Source: Lachnospiraceae bacterium
GTDB taxonomy: Bacteria > Bacillota > Clostridia > Lachnospirales > Lachnospiraceae
Direction of reading: 5' to 3'
DNA: 51,241 nt
Assembly: GCA_024405155.1 (NCBI GenBank)
Contig: JAKSPC010000011.1
Coordinates: 1-51,241, forward strand
In this document: positions 39,691 through 42,687 of the stretch, in pieces
How positions within the stretch are numbered: position 1 is the first letter of the stretch
How the letters are laid out: each line of letters begins with the position of its first letter
The notes under the pieces: generated by a model
Databases searched by the model: none
Told to the model about the DNA's origin: nothing
Seen by the model: only the letters and a program-made list of their open reading frames with translations
Program-made: the position numbers and the translations under genes

Positions 39691-40578
39691 TCACTTTCCC
39701 TTTCTGAGAACAGGAAGCAGATCCGGAAGCTGCGTAACAAGGATGGCCGCAAACATGATCACACAGCCAAGGAACTCTCTTCCGGTAACGGAAAGTCCCA
39801 TGAAGATGGCCTCGCCCAAAAGAGAAAACACCGATTCCAGGCTCATGATGAGCGACGCAATGGCCGGCTCCACGCCTTCCTGTCCCACGATCTGCAGCGT
39901 ATATGCAGCGCCTGTAGAAAGCAGTCCCACATAAAGAAGCGGCAAAAGCCCTTCTTTCACCATGGAAAGCGTAAGCGTTTCTCCGGAAAAGAGCCAGCAT
40001 ATTCCGGAGACTGCCGCCGCCGTAAGGAACTGGATCGCTGCCATCTTTACGGCATCTGCCTTTACGATGAAGTGGTCGATCACAAGGATGTGCACCGCAA
40101 AGAAAACGGCGCACAGGATGCACAGGAGATCTCCCCGGCTGACGGTCAGATTTTCCCCTTTGGGGATGCAGATCAGCCAGAGCCCGGCAACGCCCAGGAT
40201 CACAGCGATCCACGTTGTCTTATCCGTCTTCTTTTTCAGGAAGAAACCGAACACTGCCACCAGCACCATATAAAAAGCCGTCAGGAATCCGGCCTTTCCG
40301 GGAGTGGTAAGGAGGATCCCCACCTGCTGCAGGGAAGAAGCGACTCCCAGGCAGATCCCGCAAAAGATGCCCCCCAGAAGCGTATTCTTATCAGGTCTCA
40401 GACTGCCGGACAGCTTAAGGATCACCGGCTGCAGTACCAGAAAGCCGATCACGTAGCGCAGCGTATTAAAAGAATACGCCCCCATGGCACCGCCGCCGAA
40501 CGACTGTGCCGTGAAGGCAAATCCCCATATAACAGCTGTCAGGAGCAGCAGCAGTAAATGTCTTGTTTTTTTATTCAT
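39691..40578 (-). CDS. EamA/DMT family transporter
   Basis: Inner-membrane exporter-type protein, 295 residues, ten hydrophobic segments in two EamA repeats (the first from LLLLLLTAVIWGFAFTAQSFG, the second from LLCILCAVFFAVHILVIDHF). The end PVLRKGK is cytoplasmic. Substrate unknown; members export amino acids, nucleosides or drugs. Its ATG shares a base with the stop of the CobW-like gene (TGATG). Confidence 0.92.
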   Translation of the reverse strand: MNKKTRHLLLLLLTAVIWGFAFTAQSFGGGAMGAYSFNTLRYVIGFLVLQPVILKLSGSLRPDKNTLLGGIFCGICLGVASSLQQVGILLTTPGKAGFLTAFYMVLVAVFGFFLKKKTDKTTWIAVILGVAGLWLICIPKGENLTVSRGDLLCILCAVFFAVHILVIDHFIVKADAVKMAAIQFLTAAAVSGICWLFSGETLTLSMVKEGLLPLLYVGLLSTGAAYTLQIVGQEGVEPAIASLIMSLESVFSLLGEAIFMGLSVTGREFLGCVIMFAAILVTQLPDLLPVLRKGK

Positions 40579-41534
40579 CAGAATGTTACCGGATCCTTGA
40601 TCTCCTCGCAGGGAGCAATTTCCGTTACCTCAAGATACGGACCTTCCCCCTCATATTCCCTTCGTTCCATGGTACCGAACTTTGCTTTCAGATGTACGAA
40701 AGAACCGTCCTTGAACCTGCGGATATTCTCGTAATGAGCTACGAACCCCAGAAACGTCATGTCGGCGGCACAGCAGGTCATTGCCATTCGGCCCGGAACA
40801 AATTCTCCGGGACCGAAAGACCTGTCCTTCATGACACAGGCCGAAAACTCAACGGTCTTTCCCCGGTAACGCTCCGGATAATCCCTGGCGTCAAAGAACC
40901 AGATCCCGTAATTCTCCGGTTCGATCACAACATTGTCACCGGAAACATCGAAGGGGAGGTCTTCCGCAATAGTATCCAGAGGGATCTCACCGTATTTGTT
41001 TTCCATGACAATATCCGCGCCCTGCATGAGCATGGGTCGAAGCTGCCGTTTCCATCCCTGCAGTACTTCTTCCGCCACGTTGTCGCACCGGTTGATGATC
41101 ACCAGTTCTGTATAGCGCAGCATGGGTCCCATCATGGCTTTCATGTTGTTTAAGTACATGTCCAGCATGGTCCCGTCAAATACGGTGATCTGCTGATACA
41201 GCACCCAGTCATCGGGGAAGCGGAGTTTTGCAGGATCCCACATGCCGTTGTACTCAATGACGATCCGTTCTGCTTTGGCTTCCTTTGTCAGCTTATCCAG
41301 AGTCTCCTTCGAAAGAAGCGCCTCATCGGTGATCTGGCGTTTTATGATGTGCTCCTTTTTCAGGATCTTCTCATCGTATGCCACTTCACCGTCTTCGCAC
41401 ACCAGCAGCAAAGTATTTTCATCAATGTGAAAATACTCTTCGCTGATGGTAAAGTTAATGAAAGACGTCTTTCCTCCGTCCAGAAATCCGTTGATCAGAA
41501 ATACCGGTTTCTCGTTGTCTTCTAACTGGCCCAT
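40578..41534 (-). CDS. CobW-like GTPase fused to a YcgQ/DUF1980-type C-terminal domain
   Basis: 318 residues from ATG 41534 (AAGGAA six bases upstream). Residues 10-200 are a divergent COG0523/G3E GTPase: P-loop GFLDGGKT (16-23), IEYNGMWDP (where relatives have ETSGL-DP) and INRCD (148-151) as the guanine-specificity motif. The CxCC metal-binding motif of CobW proteins is absent. Residues 220-318 resemble the C-terminal domain of the YcgQ/UPF0703 (TIGR03943) family: YRGKTVEFSACVMKD, EFVPGRMAMTCCAAD (Cys-Cys 254-255), then EGPYLEVTEIAP. YcgQ proteins are thought to accompany a YcgR permease in metal handling. The fusion and the adjacent His/Asp-rich GTPase suggest a metal chaperone pair; this is inference. 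Confidence 0.78.
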   Translation of the reverse strand: MGQLEDNEKPVFLINGFLDGGKTSFINFTISEEYFHIDENTLLLVCEDGEVAYDEKILKKEHIIKRQITDEALLSKETLDKLTKEAKAERIVIEYNGMWDPAKLRFPDDWVLYQQITVFDGTMLDMYLNNMKAMMGPMLRYTELVIINRCDNVAEEVLQGWKRQLRPMLMQGADIVMENKYGEIPLDTIAEDLPFDVSGDNVVIEPENYGIWFFDARDYPERYRGKTVEFSACVMKDRSFGPGEFVPGRMAMTCCAADMTFLGFVAHYENIRRFKDGSFVHLKAKFGTMERREYEGEGPYLEVTEIAPCEEIKDPVTF

Positions 41535-41544
41535 ATCGTTTTCC

Positions 41545-42687
41545 TTATAAGAACAGTTCTCTGATGGCACCTTCCAGGAGCTCACTTCCGATCACACAGG
41601 CTTTCCCTGTCACATCCGGTGCGCCCTCTCTGATCTCGTACTCGCCGGGAGTCAGATCAAAGTAATACCACTTGTCTTCGTCTGCTGACTTGATCATGCC
41701 CTTTGCCCGCAGGATCTTTCCCAGTTCACTGTCTTCGGAAAGCTTTTTCAGCGCTTTTTCCAGATCTTTCTTTGTGATTTCTGTGATACCGGACAGGCCG
41801 ATGGAATCGAATACCTCATCCGCGTCATGACCATGGTGATGGTGATGATGATGATGGTGGTGATGATGTTCATGATGCTCATGATCGTCATCATCGTCGT
41901 CATCGTCGTCATCGTCGTCATCGTCGTCGTCATCGTCGTCGTCATCGTCATCATCGTCATCATCGTCATCATCGTCGTCATCATCGTCATCGTCATGATG
42001 ATGGTGGTGGTGATGATGGTGCTCGTGTTCCTCCTCGTCTTCTCCGTCGGGGACCAGAAGAGCTTCCTTGCGAAGGGAATCCAGCGTGTCATCCCGTTTT
42101 TCGATCACGGCCAGAAGCTTTTCGCCGCTCAGTTCGGAAAGAGGCGTAGTGACGATCTCGGCGGTGGGGTTCAGTTCTTTTACGATCTCCACTGCCGCTT
42201 TTACCTGTTCCGGCGTGGCAATGTCTGTCCTGGAAAGGACCACAGTCCCTGCATACTGGATCTGGTTATTGAAAAATTCGCCGAAATTTTTTGCGTACAT
42301 GGGGCACTTCTTGGCATCCACGATGGTAACTGCAGAATTAAGTACCACGTCAAGAGACGCGGACGCGTCAGTGACGGCTTTCATGATGTCGGACAGTTTT
42401 CCCACTCCGGAAGGTTCAATGATGATCCGCTCCGGCGCAAATTTCGTGATCACTTCCTTCAGAGACTTTTCAAAATCTCCCACCAGAGAACAGCAGATGC
42501 ACCCCTGGCTCATTTCCCGGATCTCGACGCCGGAATCCTTAAGGAATCCGCCGTCGATGCCGATCTCGCCGAATTCGTTCTCAATGAGAACGATCTTTTC
42601 TCCCTTCAGAGCTTCCCCCAGAAGTTTTTTTATGAATGTCGTTTTTCCGGATCCCAGAAATCCTGAGATCACATCGATCTTTGTCAT
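41545..42687 (-). CDS. COG0523 (CobW/P47K) GTPase with giant His-Asp-His metal-binding insert
   Basis: Putative metallochaperone GTPase, 380 residues. P-loop GFLGSGKT (9-16), the hallmark GCICCS with Cys63, Cys65 and Cys66, IIEPSGVGKLSDI and SRTD as the NKxD equivalent. Between the GTPase and C-terminal domains lies an insert at 221-288: HEH plus eight further His, then 37 consecutive Asp (232-268), then HEHHEH plus 11 more His and GHD. His-rich linkers occur in zinc and nickel COG0523 proteins, but so long an Asp run is unusual. AGGAGG precedes the ATG. It follows ileS by 12 bases. Zinc is the most likely metal by family; Ni or Co is possible. Confidence 0.9.
   Translation of the reverse strand: MTKIDVISGFLGSGKTTFIKKLLGEALKGEKIVLIENEFGEIGIDGGFLKDSGVEIREMSQGCICCSLVGDFEKSLKEVITKFAPERIIIEPSGVGKLSDIMKAVTDASASLDVVLNSAVTIVDAKKCPMYAKNFGEFFNNQIQYAGTVVLSRTDIATPEQVKAAVEIVKELNPTAEIVTTPLSELSGEKLLAVIEKRDDTLDSLRKEALLVPDGEDEEEHEHHHHHHHHHDDDDDDDDDDDDDDDDDDDDDDDDDDDDDDDDDDDDDHEHHEHHHHHHHHHHHHGHDADEVFDSIGLSGITEITKKDLEKALKKLSEDSELGKILRAKGMIKSADEDKWYYFDLTPGEYEIREGAPDVTGKACVIGSELLEGAIRELFL
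41827..42027 (-). repeat. Trinucleotide repeat coding poly-His/poly-Asp
   Basis: On the minus strand 111 bases (41884-41994) are uninterrupted GAT/GAC codons, flanked by CAT/CAC runs. The mix of synonymous codons lowers slippage compared with a pure repeat, yet blocks such as GATGAC and GATGATGAC recur, so expansion by recombination or slippage is likely. Confidence 0.95.

Follow-up and report, generated by a model that had tools for sequence, protein, structure and literature searches.

A COG0523-type GTPase with a long His/Asp-rich tail and its CobW2::DUF1980_C partner in Lachnospiraceae: a proposed permease-free zinc module

The window, by which we mean the whole analysed stretch of 51,241 nucleotides (contig JAKSPC010000011.1 of the Lachnospiraceae bacterium assembly GCA_024405155.1), carries on its minus strand two adjacent genes encoding G3E GTPases, here called CobW1 and CobW2::DUF1980_C. 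The genes and their features are the following.

39691..40578, minus strand: gene for an EamA-family transporter, with an overlap of 1 base between its start and the fusion stop
40578..41534, minus strand: CobW2::DUF1980_C fusion, 318 aa (PF02492 and PF21537 profiles)
40590..40943, minus strand: DUF1980_C domain of the fusion, residues 198-315 (PF21537)
40761..40778, minus strand: TCCAAD signature of the fusion, residues 253-258 (sequence)
41040..41507, minus strand: CobW2 GTPase domain, residues 10-165, without CxCC (PF02492)
41545..42687, minus strand: CobW1, COG0523-type GTPase with metal-binding tail, 380 aa (PF02492, 1.4e-40; PF07683, 5e-5)
41551..41781, minus strand: CobW_C domain of CobW1, residues 303-379 (PF07683)
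41827..42027, minus strand: His/Asp-rich insert of CobW1, residues 221-287 (sequence)
41884..41994, minus strand: run of 37 Asp codons in CobW1, residues 232-268 (sequence; tandem array)
42490..42501, minus strand: CICC metal-site motif of CobW1, residues 63-66 (sequence)

The earlier note had described two adjacent G3E GTPases 10 bases apart, and this gap was indeed found, with the fusion started at the ATG at 41534. Membership of the EamA-family gene in the CobW1/CobW2 module is doubtful. On the other side, CobW1 lies only 12 bases behind ileS, and therefore no zinc-responsive promoter is evident in the window. The ileS product, Ile-tRNA synthetase, is a zinc enzyme; it was rejected as a candidate client, as CobW1 is located directly behind an ileS-cluster gene in only 8 loci, all from the genus of the window.

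CobW1 has a G3E GTPase domain (PF02492, 1.4e-40) with a CxCC motif beside the nucleotide site, and a CobW_C domain (PF07683, 23.5 bits with a cut-off of 22, E 5e-5). Its G4 motif reads SRTD instead of NKxD, and the nearest solved structure in a PDB profile search is YjiA (1nij, E 3.1e-20). The insert comprises nine His (223-231), 37 Asp (232-268) and twelve His (274-285). The CxCC motif and the 37 Asp were recovered as previously claimed; from first to last His, however, the insert measures 67 residues rather than 68.

A G3E GTPase domain is also present in CobW2 (PF02492, 4.6e-12), which reads CEDG and EYNGMW at the positions of NEFG and EPSG in CobW1. The lack of CxCC, already noticed, holds for the window protein and for all distinct fusions (0/143, first 140 residues searched), and for this reason the term standard COG0523 chaperone does not suit CobW2, which is a divergent CobW GTPase. 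Neither NKxD nor (S/T)KxD was found at its G4 site, where Lys is replaced by Arg in 141 of the 143 fusions and Asp151 is kept in 97 of the 143. Among PDB profiles the GTPase part matches YjiA (E 0.00015), other matches being at E 0.03 or worse.

The proposed YcgQ/UPF0703-like C-terminus with its TCCAAD signature was borne out by a profile match to DUF1980_C (PF21537, 73.3 bits with a cut-off of 25.9, E 2.1e-20). The comparison with TIGR03943 came out in part: the C-terminal half matches over fusion residues 191-314 with 64.4 bits, below the cut-off of 88.8, but the N-terminal membrane half is absent from the fusion, in which no hydropathy segment was found. The Arg, both Cys and the Asp of DUF1980_C are each kept in 33 of the 35 sequences compared, which come from three contexts. 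The genome of the window contains one DUF1980_C match. A PDB profile search with this domain gave no match; it may have an OB fold, a guess based on its strand pattern together with a weak match, by local HMM, to an aspartyl-tRNA synthetase-like protein (L252).

The distribution of these genes was surveyed in 99 genomes, i.e. the window's own and 98 relatives, and in the 80 named loci kept by a scan. The fusion is present in 60 of the 99 genomes and in 80/80 named loci; it is a widespread family of Clostridia and not special to the genome of the window. CobW1 was detected at E <= 1e-30 in 57 of the 60 fusion genomes; in 52 of these 57 its GTPase domain is at most 1,354 bp from the fusion, in four it is on another contig and in one (G054) it is 24 kb away. 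CobW1 was found in none of the five family genomes without the fusion, and among the 99 genomes only where some form of CobW2 occurs. In the named loci CobW1 is on the same stretch in 71/80, with gaps of -62 to 705 bp, and in the remaining nine no more than 466 bp separate the start of the fusion from the stretch edge. The pair is conserved in relatives: it is found widely across Lachnospiraceae and other Clostridia, nearly always with both members together, and according to record titles it is common among Lachnospiraceae of gut and rumen. The genome counts just given, like those of fusion motifs above and of permease-fusion loci and tails below, include near relatives, only identical C-termini or identical fusions having been removed, and a genome may be represented in both the unnamed and the named loci.

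Other relatives carry an ArsP_1 permease domain on the same open reading frames as CobW (5.6e-40 and 7.3e-60), giving a full arrangement of CobW1, a CobW2::ArsP_1 permease and a separate membrane DUF1980 protein. The DUF1980 gene adjoins the CobW2::ArsP_1 fusion in 20/20 loci, and CobW1 precedes the latter on the same strand in 14, is divergent in three and was not found in three. In the tree of GTPase domains, all 32 DUF1980_C fusions (32/32) are on the same side of a single branch, supported at 95/98 (96% of 200 bootstraps). ArsP_1 (PF03773) gave no match in 44 of the 60 fusion genomes, nor, by local HMM, on any of the 80 named stretches; in 16/60 a match lies elsewhere in the genome. The window's own genome has no ArsP_1 match either, and at 93% completeness the missing permease, like the missing ZnuA (see below), could lie in gaps. 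Since relatives carry the permease as a fusion with the same CobW2 domain, the window form looks like a reduced form of a larger permease system. The earlier statement that the YcgQ-type protein is normally separate and paired with a permease needs amending, as the permease does not occur only as a separate partner, being itself fused to CobW2 in these relatives.

The three forms of CobW2 are accompanied by different CobW1 tails. Beside the DUF1980_C fusion CobW1 has a median of 39 His and at least 10 His in 122/123, compared to a median of 3 beside permease fusions (at least 10 in 5/19) and of 1 beside lone CobW2 (at least 10 in 0/5). L155 is absent from this count for lack of a P-loop match, and L089, which is truncated by a contig end, shows no partner on its stretch. 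The five His-rich exceptions among the 24 non-fusion cases have 10-14 His, with 11-14 in L178, L182 and L184. Both systems occur together in two genomes, G264 and G344, where the CobW1 of the fusion has 29 and 33 His and the other CobW1 1 and 1. In G065, a genome without a PF03773 match in which lone CobW2 accompanies DUF1980, CobW1 nevertheless has only 5 His; this genome is 80% complete, with the cluster at a contig end. On the CobW1 tree, which lacks L178 and L184 (= L206 and L212) because of P-loops missed by the pattern or divergent neighbours, the contrast between tail and permease amounts to one independent pair, and hence carries no statistical weight as an adaptation. The shared trait of the fusion-side CobW1 proteins is a long His-rich tail, mostly with Cys.

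A crude hydropathy analysis of 33 standalone DUF1980_C proteins gave three N-terminal segments in 30. Lys and Arg are more numerous in the second than in the first loop in 19 of these 30, equal in three and fewer in eight, a weak hint that the N-terminus may be inside and DUF1980_C outside. In a published model ScfB has two segments (PMC5584981), which would place both ends on the same side and argues against this topology.

Zinc is the best-supported metal, judging from gene context. Genes of the znu type lie beside the pair in L045 and L047 and in 5/80 named loci, and near the CobW2::ArsP_1 fusion in 6/20 loci, in some cases as znuACB. Short genes encoding DUF1980_C in a lipoprotein-like form are found directly behind znu genes in seven of nine loci fetched for weak matches, and in L080, which likewise points to zinc. 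In the window's own genome (93% complete) no ZnuA match was found; ZIP and Fur-family matches are present. Upstream of CobW1, known Fur-family boxes showed no Zur-box enrichment over shuffles (166 stretches, copies included), nor did a scan of all 6-1-6 palindromes reveal an enriched box (149 stretches without copies), the top patterns having small counts, 8 and fewer, compared to 0 expected for the first two. The pattern TGAAATNATTTCA was considered as a Zur box, as it occurs in 42/166 stretches, whereas 30 shuffles gave 8.6 on average. However, 30 coding bases had been included; once these were removed it fell outside the 12 top patterns, and its enrichment is probably a coding artefact.

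We propose that CobW1 and CobW2::DUF1980_C probably, though by no means certainly, form a near-obligate two-protein module for loading and handing over zinc, related to the Clostridia system but free of its permease. Gene context supports zinc as the metal, whereas we infer the direction and the mechanism. By analogy with COG0523 proteins, CobW1 would collect zinc on its His/Asp(/Cys) tail and pass it in a nucleotide-gated manner to the CxCC site, and GTP-dependent metal binding is predicted for it. CobW2, without CxCC and with its G4 Asp only partly kept, would be a docking or regulatory half and not a second chaperone. DUF1980_C would act through R..CC..D as a metal-relay or client-facing domain, which in the full system is paired with the permease; where the latter is missing, the CobW1 tail would serve in its place as an internal zinc store. 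The two-part loading or delivery module suggested earlier fits the pairing and the zinc context, but has to accommodate that the fusion is widespread and that the permease is sometimes fused to CobW2. A bolder version, which we put forward tentatively and think doubtful, is that a membrane zinc system has been internalised: the permease was deleted, the extracytoplasmic zinc-binding domain of its partner became the cytosolic tail of a degenerate GTPase and the partner GTPase grew a metal sponge storing what the permease had moved, CobW1 and CobW2 forming a hetero-GTPase relay. Such a metal relay was not found described in the literature searched.

Alternatively, the system could guard against zinc excess, the permease of the full system exporting zinc and permease-less lineages storing the surplus on the CobW1 tail. 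The longer tails where the permease is absent would suit such overflow buffering, but the znu neighbourhoods would not, as znu importers are part of scarcity responses. The permease part weakly resembles the Cu/Zn efflux protein SO_0444 (47 bits with a cut-off of 300), and an ArsP_1 permease of B. anthracis is predicted to be Zur-activated (PMC6336718). Both observations fit export better than import and count against zinc loading. In the same study Zur binds ahead of the operon of this permease (BAS1632) and ahead of two COG0523 genes, which speaks for the zinc module. Part of the COG0523 family has been linked to zinc homeostasis (PMC2770081), which argues against overflow buffering, and this reading appears improbable to us.

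The genes may also encode an ordinary zinc chaperone pair in which DUF1980_C replaces CobW_C, the tail and the permease loss being unrelated accidents of one lineage. This would be consistent with the single independent contrast, and with the His-rich regions of about 40% of COG0523 sequences (PMC2770081), but it leaves unexplained why CobW1 is confined, among the 99 genomes, to those with some form of CobW2, and why one and the same CobW2 domain is joined in some cases to a permease and in others to DUF1980_C; we regard it as unlikely. That the module serves another metal, e.g. cobalt or nickel, is very improbable: COG0523 does include the cobalt chaperone CobW (PMC7895991), but zinc transporter genes lie near all three kinds of DUF1980_C genes, in part of the loci. 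For the Asp run taken by itself, expansion by slippage with no functional meaning is an evenly balanced possibility. A tandem array (41879-41996; period 9, 85% matches) covers the run, which is peculiar to the genome of the window, the next longest among 123 CobW1 tails having 8 Asp; on the other hand, all 37 codons are GAC or GAT, with changes between these two only, and His blocks flank the run. As the run is idiosyncratic and the common trait is the His-rich tail, a functional argument from the 37 Asp is weak.

The occurrence of DUF1980_C behind znu genes, as partner of a GTPase-permease fusion and as tail of a GTPase links these parts together and to zinc, and it offers a testable set of partners for DUF1980 and its permease. 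The pair may offer a natural test of whether metal stored inside the cell can replace a membrane transporter. Among the matches listed, in titles and abstract beginnings of the open-licence literature, no CobW-DUF1980 or CobW-ArsP_1 fusion was described, and no function was assigned to DUF1980 or its permease partner in the portions of the literature searched.

Compared to known systems, the window shares with the Clostridia clusters of CobW1, CobW2::ArsP_1 and DUF1980 the CobW1 family, the CobW2 family (CEEG and EYNGMW in L073, CEDG and EYNGMW in the window) and DUF1980_C; it differs from them in lacking the permease, in carrying DUF1980_C on CobW2 and in the long His-rich tail of CobW1. The short DUF1980_C genes behind znu share the R..CC..D domain with the fusion, but encode apparently exported lipoproteins (lipobox recognised by eye) without a GTPase. 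With the TIGR03943/DUF1980 family (YcgQ and ScfB, with permeases YcgR and ScfA) CobW2 has in common the C-terminal DUF1980_C domain with TCCAAD, but in the window this domain is fused to a GTPase, without the membrane half and without a permease match. Finally, CobW1 resembles the COG0523/CobW zinc metallochaperones (PF02492 and PF07683; YciC, ZigA, YjiA) in its GTPase domain, CxCC motif and CobW_C domain, and is set apart from them by its very long His/Asp tail with 37 Asp and by its near-obligate second GTPase partner.

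The coordinates bear out the adjacency of the two GTPases described in the earlier note, the second gene starting 10 bases downstream of the first:

41545–42687, minus strand: CobW1, a COG0523-type GTPase of 380 residues
CobW1 residues 63–66: CICC motif
CobW1 residues 221–287: His/Asp insert between the GTPase and CobW_C domains
40578–41534, minus strand: CobW2::DUF1980_C fusion of 318 residues

The CxCC motif and the 37 consecutive Asp residues within the insert were likewise found as described. In the second protein a profile search identified a divergent CobW domain (PF02492, 4.6e-12) and, at residues 198–315, DUF1980_C (PF21537, 2.1e-20), which is the YcgQ-type C-terminal domain proposed earlier. 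TIGR03943 scored under its cut-off on the same part, as expected because the fusion has no membrane half. CobW1 and the fusion are the two PF02492 matches in their genome (93% complete), and the fusion is its one DUF1980_C match. The stop codon of the fusion shares 1 base with the start of an EamA-family transporter gene (39691–40578), which suggests that the two are translationally coupled; elsewhere in the genus a gene resembling it by eye is also found 3' of the pair (a cluster of 12 loci). A 1079-aa gene, presumably ileS (42700–45939), ends 12 bases before CobW1; in 8 loci, the window's among them and all from this genus, CobW1 comes immediately after this gene's cluster.

Among 99 genomes (its own and 98 relatives) the fusion is present in 60, i.e. 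in 25/25 of the genus, 31/36 others of the family and 4/38 from the rest of the order. CobW1, called at E ≤ 1e-30, was found in 57 of these 60, so that the pair is conserved in relatives, as the earlier idea implied, and is near-obligate. In two of the other three (G001, G040) the fusion lies less than 440 bases from the contig start, and in G044 (67% complete) a different gene is upstream. In 52 of the 57 genomes no more than 1,354 bp separate the CobW1 GTPase domain from the fusion; in four it is on another contig, and in G054 it is 24 kb distant. No CobW1 was found in any of the five family genomes lacking the fusion; the three remaining CobW1 carriers (G065, G080, G093) have another CobW2 form adjoining. 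A scan of GTDB species genomes gave at least 593 pattern matches, at least 576 of them encoding a relative; all 80 loci kept contain the fusion, and 71 have CobW1 on the same stretch. In the other nine the fusion starts at most 466 bp from the edge. Hungatella hathewayi DSM 13479, Lacrimispora defluvii and Butyrivibrio hungatei are among the named carriers. Two genomes of the window's genus, G024 and G001, have a second CobW2-DUF1980_C paralogue that is divergent (L082:5868–6980 and L083:4353–5234), with no CobW1 on the fetched stretches, and another fusion paralogue (L235:3667–5727, G442) adjoins a CobW protein of a different kind that has no His tail.

Elsewhere in the Clostridia the equivalent position is taken by a protein of 512–596 residues with an N-terminal CobW domain followed by an ArsP_1 permease (PF03773; 5.6e-40 in L073, 7.3e-60 in L075). 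A DUF1980 gene adjoins this permease fusion in 20/20 loci; CobW1 lies ahead of the fusion in the same orientation in 14, is divergent in three and was not found in three. G264, G344 and G393 have the unfused order CobW1–CobW2 (about 210 residues)–permease–DUF1980, and the CobW2 of L073 has the unusual motifs CEEG and EYNGMW in common with the window's CobW2 family. In a tree of 66 GTPase domains, including 32 DUF1980_C fusions and 20 permease fusions, a single branch separates all 32 DUF1980_C fusions from the rest (95/98, 96% of 200 bootstraps); support is lower (89/85) for the group that joins them to eight of the permease fusions. The simplest reading is that the fusion arose once, giving a derived locus without the permease. 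No PF03773 match was found in 44 of the 60 fusion genomes, the window's (93% complete) among them, and in the remaining 16 the match is located away from the fusion.

The CobW1 tail differs with the neighbouring form, counted over proteins with distinct C-termini. Beside the DUF1980_C fusion the linker has a median of 39 His (at least 10 in 122/123) and at least two Cys in 106/123, against a median of 3 His beside the permease fusion (at least 10 in 5/19, maximum 14) and of 1 beside a lone CobW2 (at least 10 in 0/5), a contrast to be read as a pattern and not as a test because it is one independent contrast on the CobW1 tree. Where both systems coexist (G264, G344), the fusion's CobW1 has 29 and 33 His versus 1 and 1 in the other. 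There are counter-cases: G065 has no PF03773 match, yet its CobW1 has 5 His (cluster at a contig end), and long tails also occur in the 16 fusion genomes holding a permease elsewhere. The Asp37 run stands apart from the others, as the second-longest Asp run among the 123 tails has 8 residues; it lies within a tandem array of period 9, with all 37 codons GAC or GAT. A metallothionein-like tail, with repeated Cys-x-Cys-Gly-His units amid His/Asp blocks, was seen in the CobW1 of L045 (7272–8768, minus), whose gene lies behind znu genes.

Several neighbourhoods point to zinc. The order in L045, on one strand, is znuA-znuC-znuB-CobW1-CobW2 (fusion pair), and in L047 znu genes lie behind the pair. 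Such genes are near the pair in 5/80 named loci, three from Eisenbergiella (many stretches are short), and near the permease form in 6/20 (L206, L210, L212, L214, L216, L218; the first three from one family). Nine loci were retrieved because their DUF1980_C match was weak or short; in seven of them (L245–L248, L250, L251, L253) the domain lies directly behind znu genes, L080 being an eighth case. ZnuA was not matched at L250 nor ZnuC at L251; at L249 no znu genes lie by the DUF1980_C match, and L252, fetched for a weak match, looks like an aspartyl-tRNA synthetase. Short genes directly behind znu genes lie at:

L245:5706–6356
L246:5793–6305
L247:5925–6431
L248:825–1292
L253:6095–6691
L080:5884–6450

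L251 and five of these short proteins score above the Pfam cut-off. The short proteins come from several families of the order, are apparently of lipoprotein type, and are possibly accessory zinc-binding subunits of the ABC importer. L251:5257–6600 (minus) is a single 447-aa frame joining a ZnuB-type ABC-3 permease, a further fusion partner, to DUF1980_C. Against zinc control here, the Zur-type boxes scanned upstream of CobW1 showed no enrichment over shuffles, and the window's genome (93% complete) gave no ZnuA match; ZIP and Fur-family matches are present there.

In 143 distinct fusions the P-loop Lys, Glu94 and Asn96 are invariant, Cys46 is kept in 136, and Cys254, Cys255 and Asp258 in 142 each. 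As noted earlier for the window's protein, CxCC is missing: none was found in the first 140 residues of any of the 143. In G4, Lys is replaced by Arg in 141/143 and Asp is kept in 97/143. On this conservation CobW2 probably binds nucleotide but has given up the chaperone metal site and perhaps also strict guanine choice. DUF1980_C retains its R, C, C and D in 33/35 chosen sequences of fusion, membrane and short forms (in a second set these and a G are invariant in 15/15), which suggests a metal site; a redox pair is a possible alternative. The COG0523 protein CobW is reported to bind metal with the aid of nucleotide, probably at CxCC (PMC7895991).

The proposed two-part metal module is supported in part, its function being inferred from gene context. 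CobW1 would act as loader and store, and CobW2::DUF1980_C as the docking and relay half. As to direction, the znu neighbourhoods favour a scarcity response, whereas the permease's weak likeness to a Cu/Zn exporter favours export, for which the Zur activation predicted for the Bacillus anthracis permease also counts (PMC6336718). If export is correct, the CobW1 tail would stand in for efflux.

Standalone DUF1980_C proteins have three N-terminal hydropathy segments in 30/33 cases and the znu-linked forms look lipoprotein-like by eye, so the domain may face outward as a rule; the published ScfB model with two segments is contrary to this (PMC5584981). In the fusion the domain is attached behind a nucleotide-binding domain, and hydropathy gives no membrane segment, so that a cytosolic location is expected. 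If confirmed, a zinc domain has switched membrane sides during evolution.

Among known systems, Zur of B. anthracis has binding sites ahead of an operon with an ArsP_1 permease and ahead of two COG0523 genes (PMC6336718), which also points to zinc. The streptococcal YcgR-YcgQ homologues, scfAB, are required for infection fitness, with function unassigned in PMC5584981. The present finding, of which no description was found in the searched literature on these families, is wider than the earlier note stated: it is a widespread permease-free variant of the CobW-permease-DUF1980 system.
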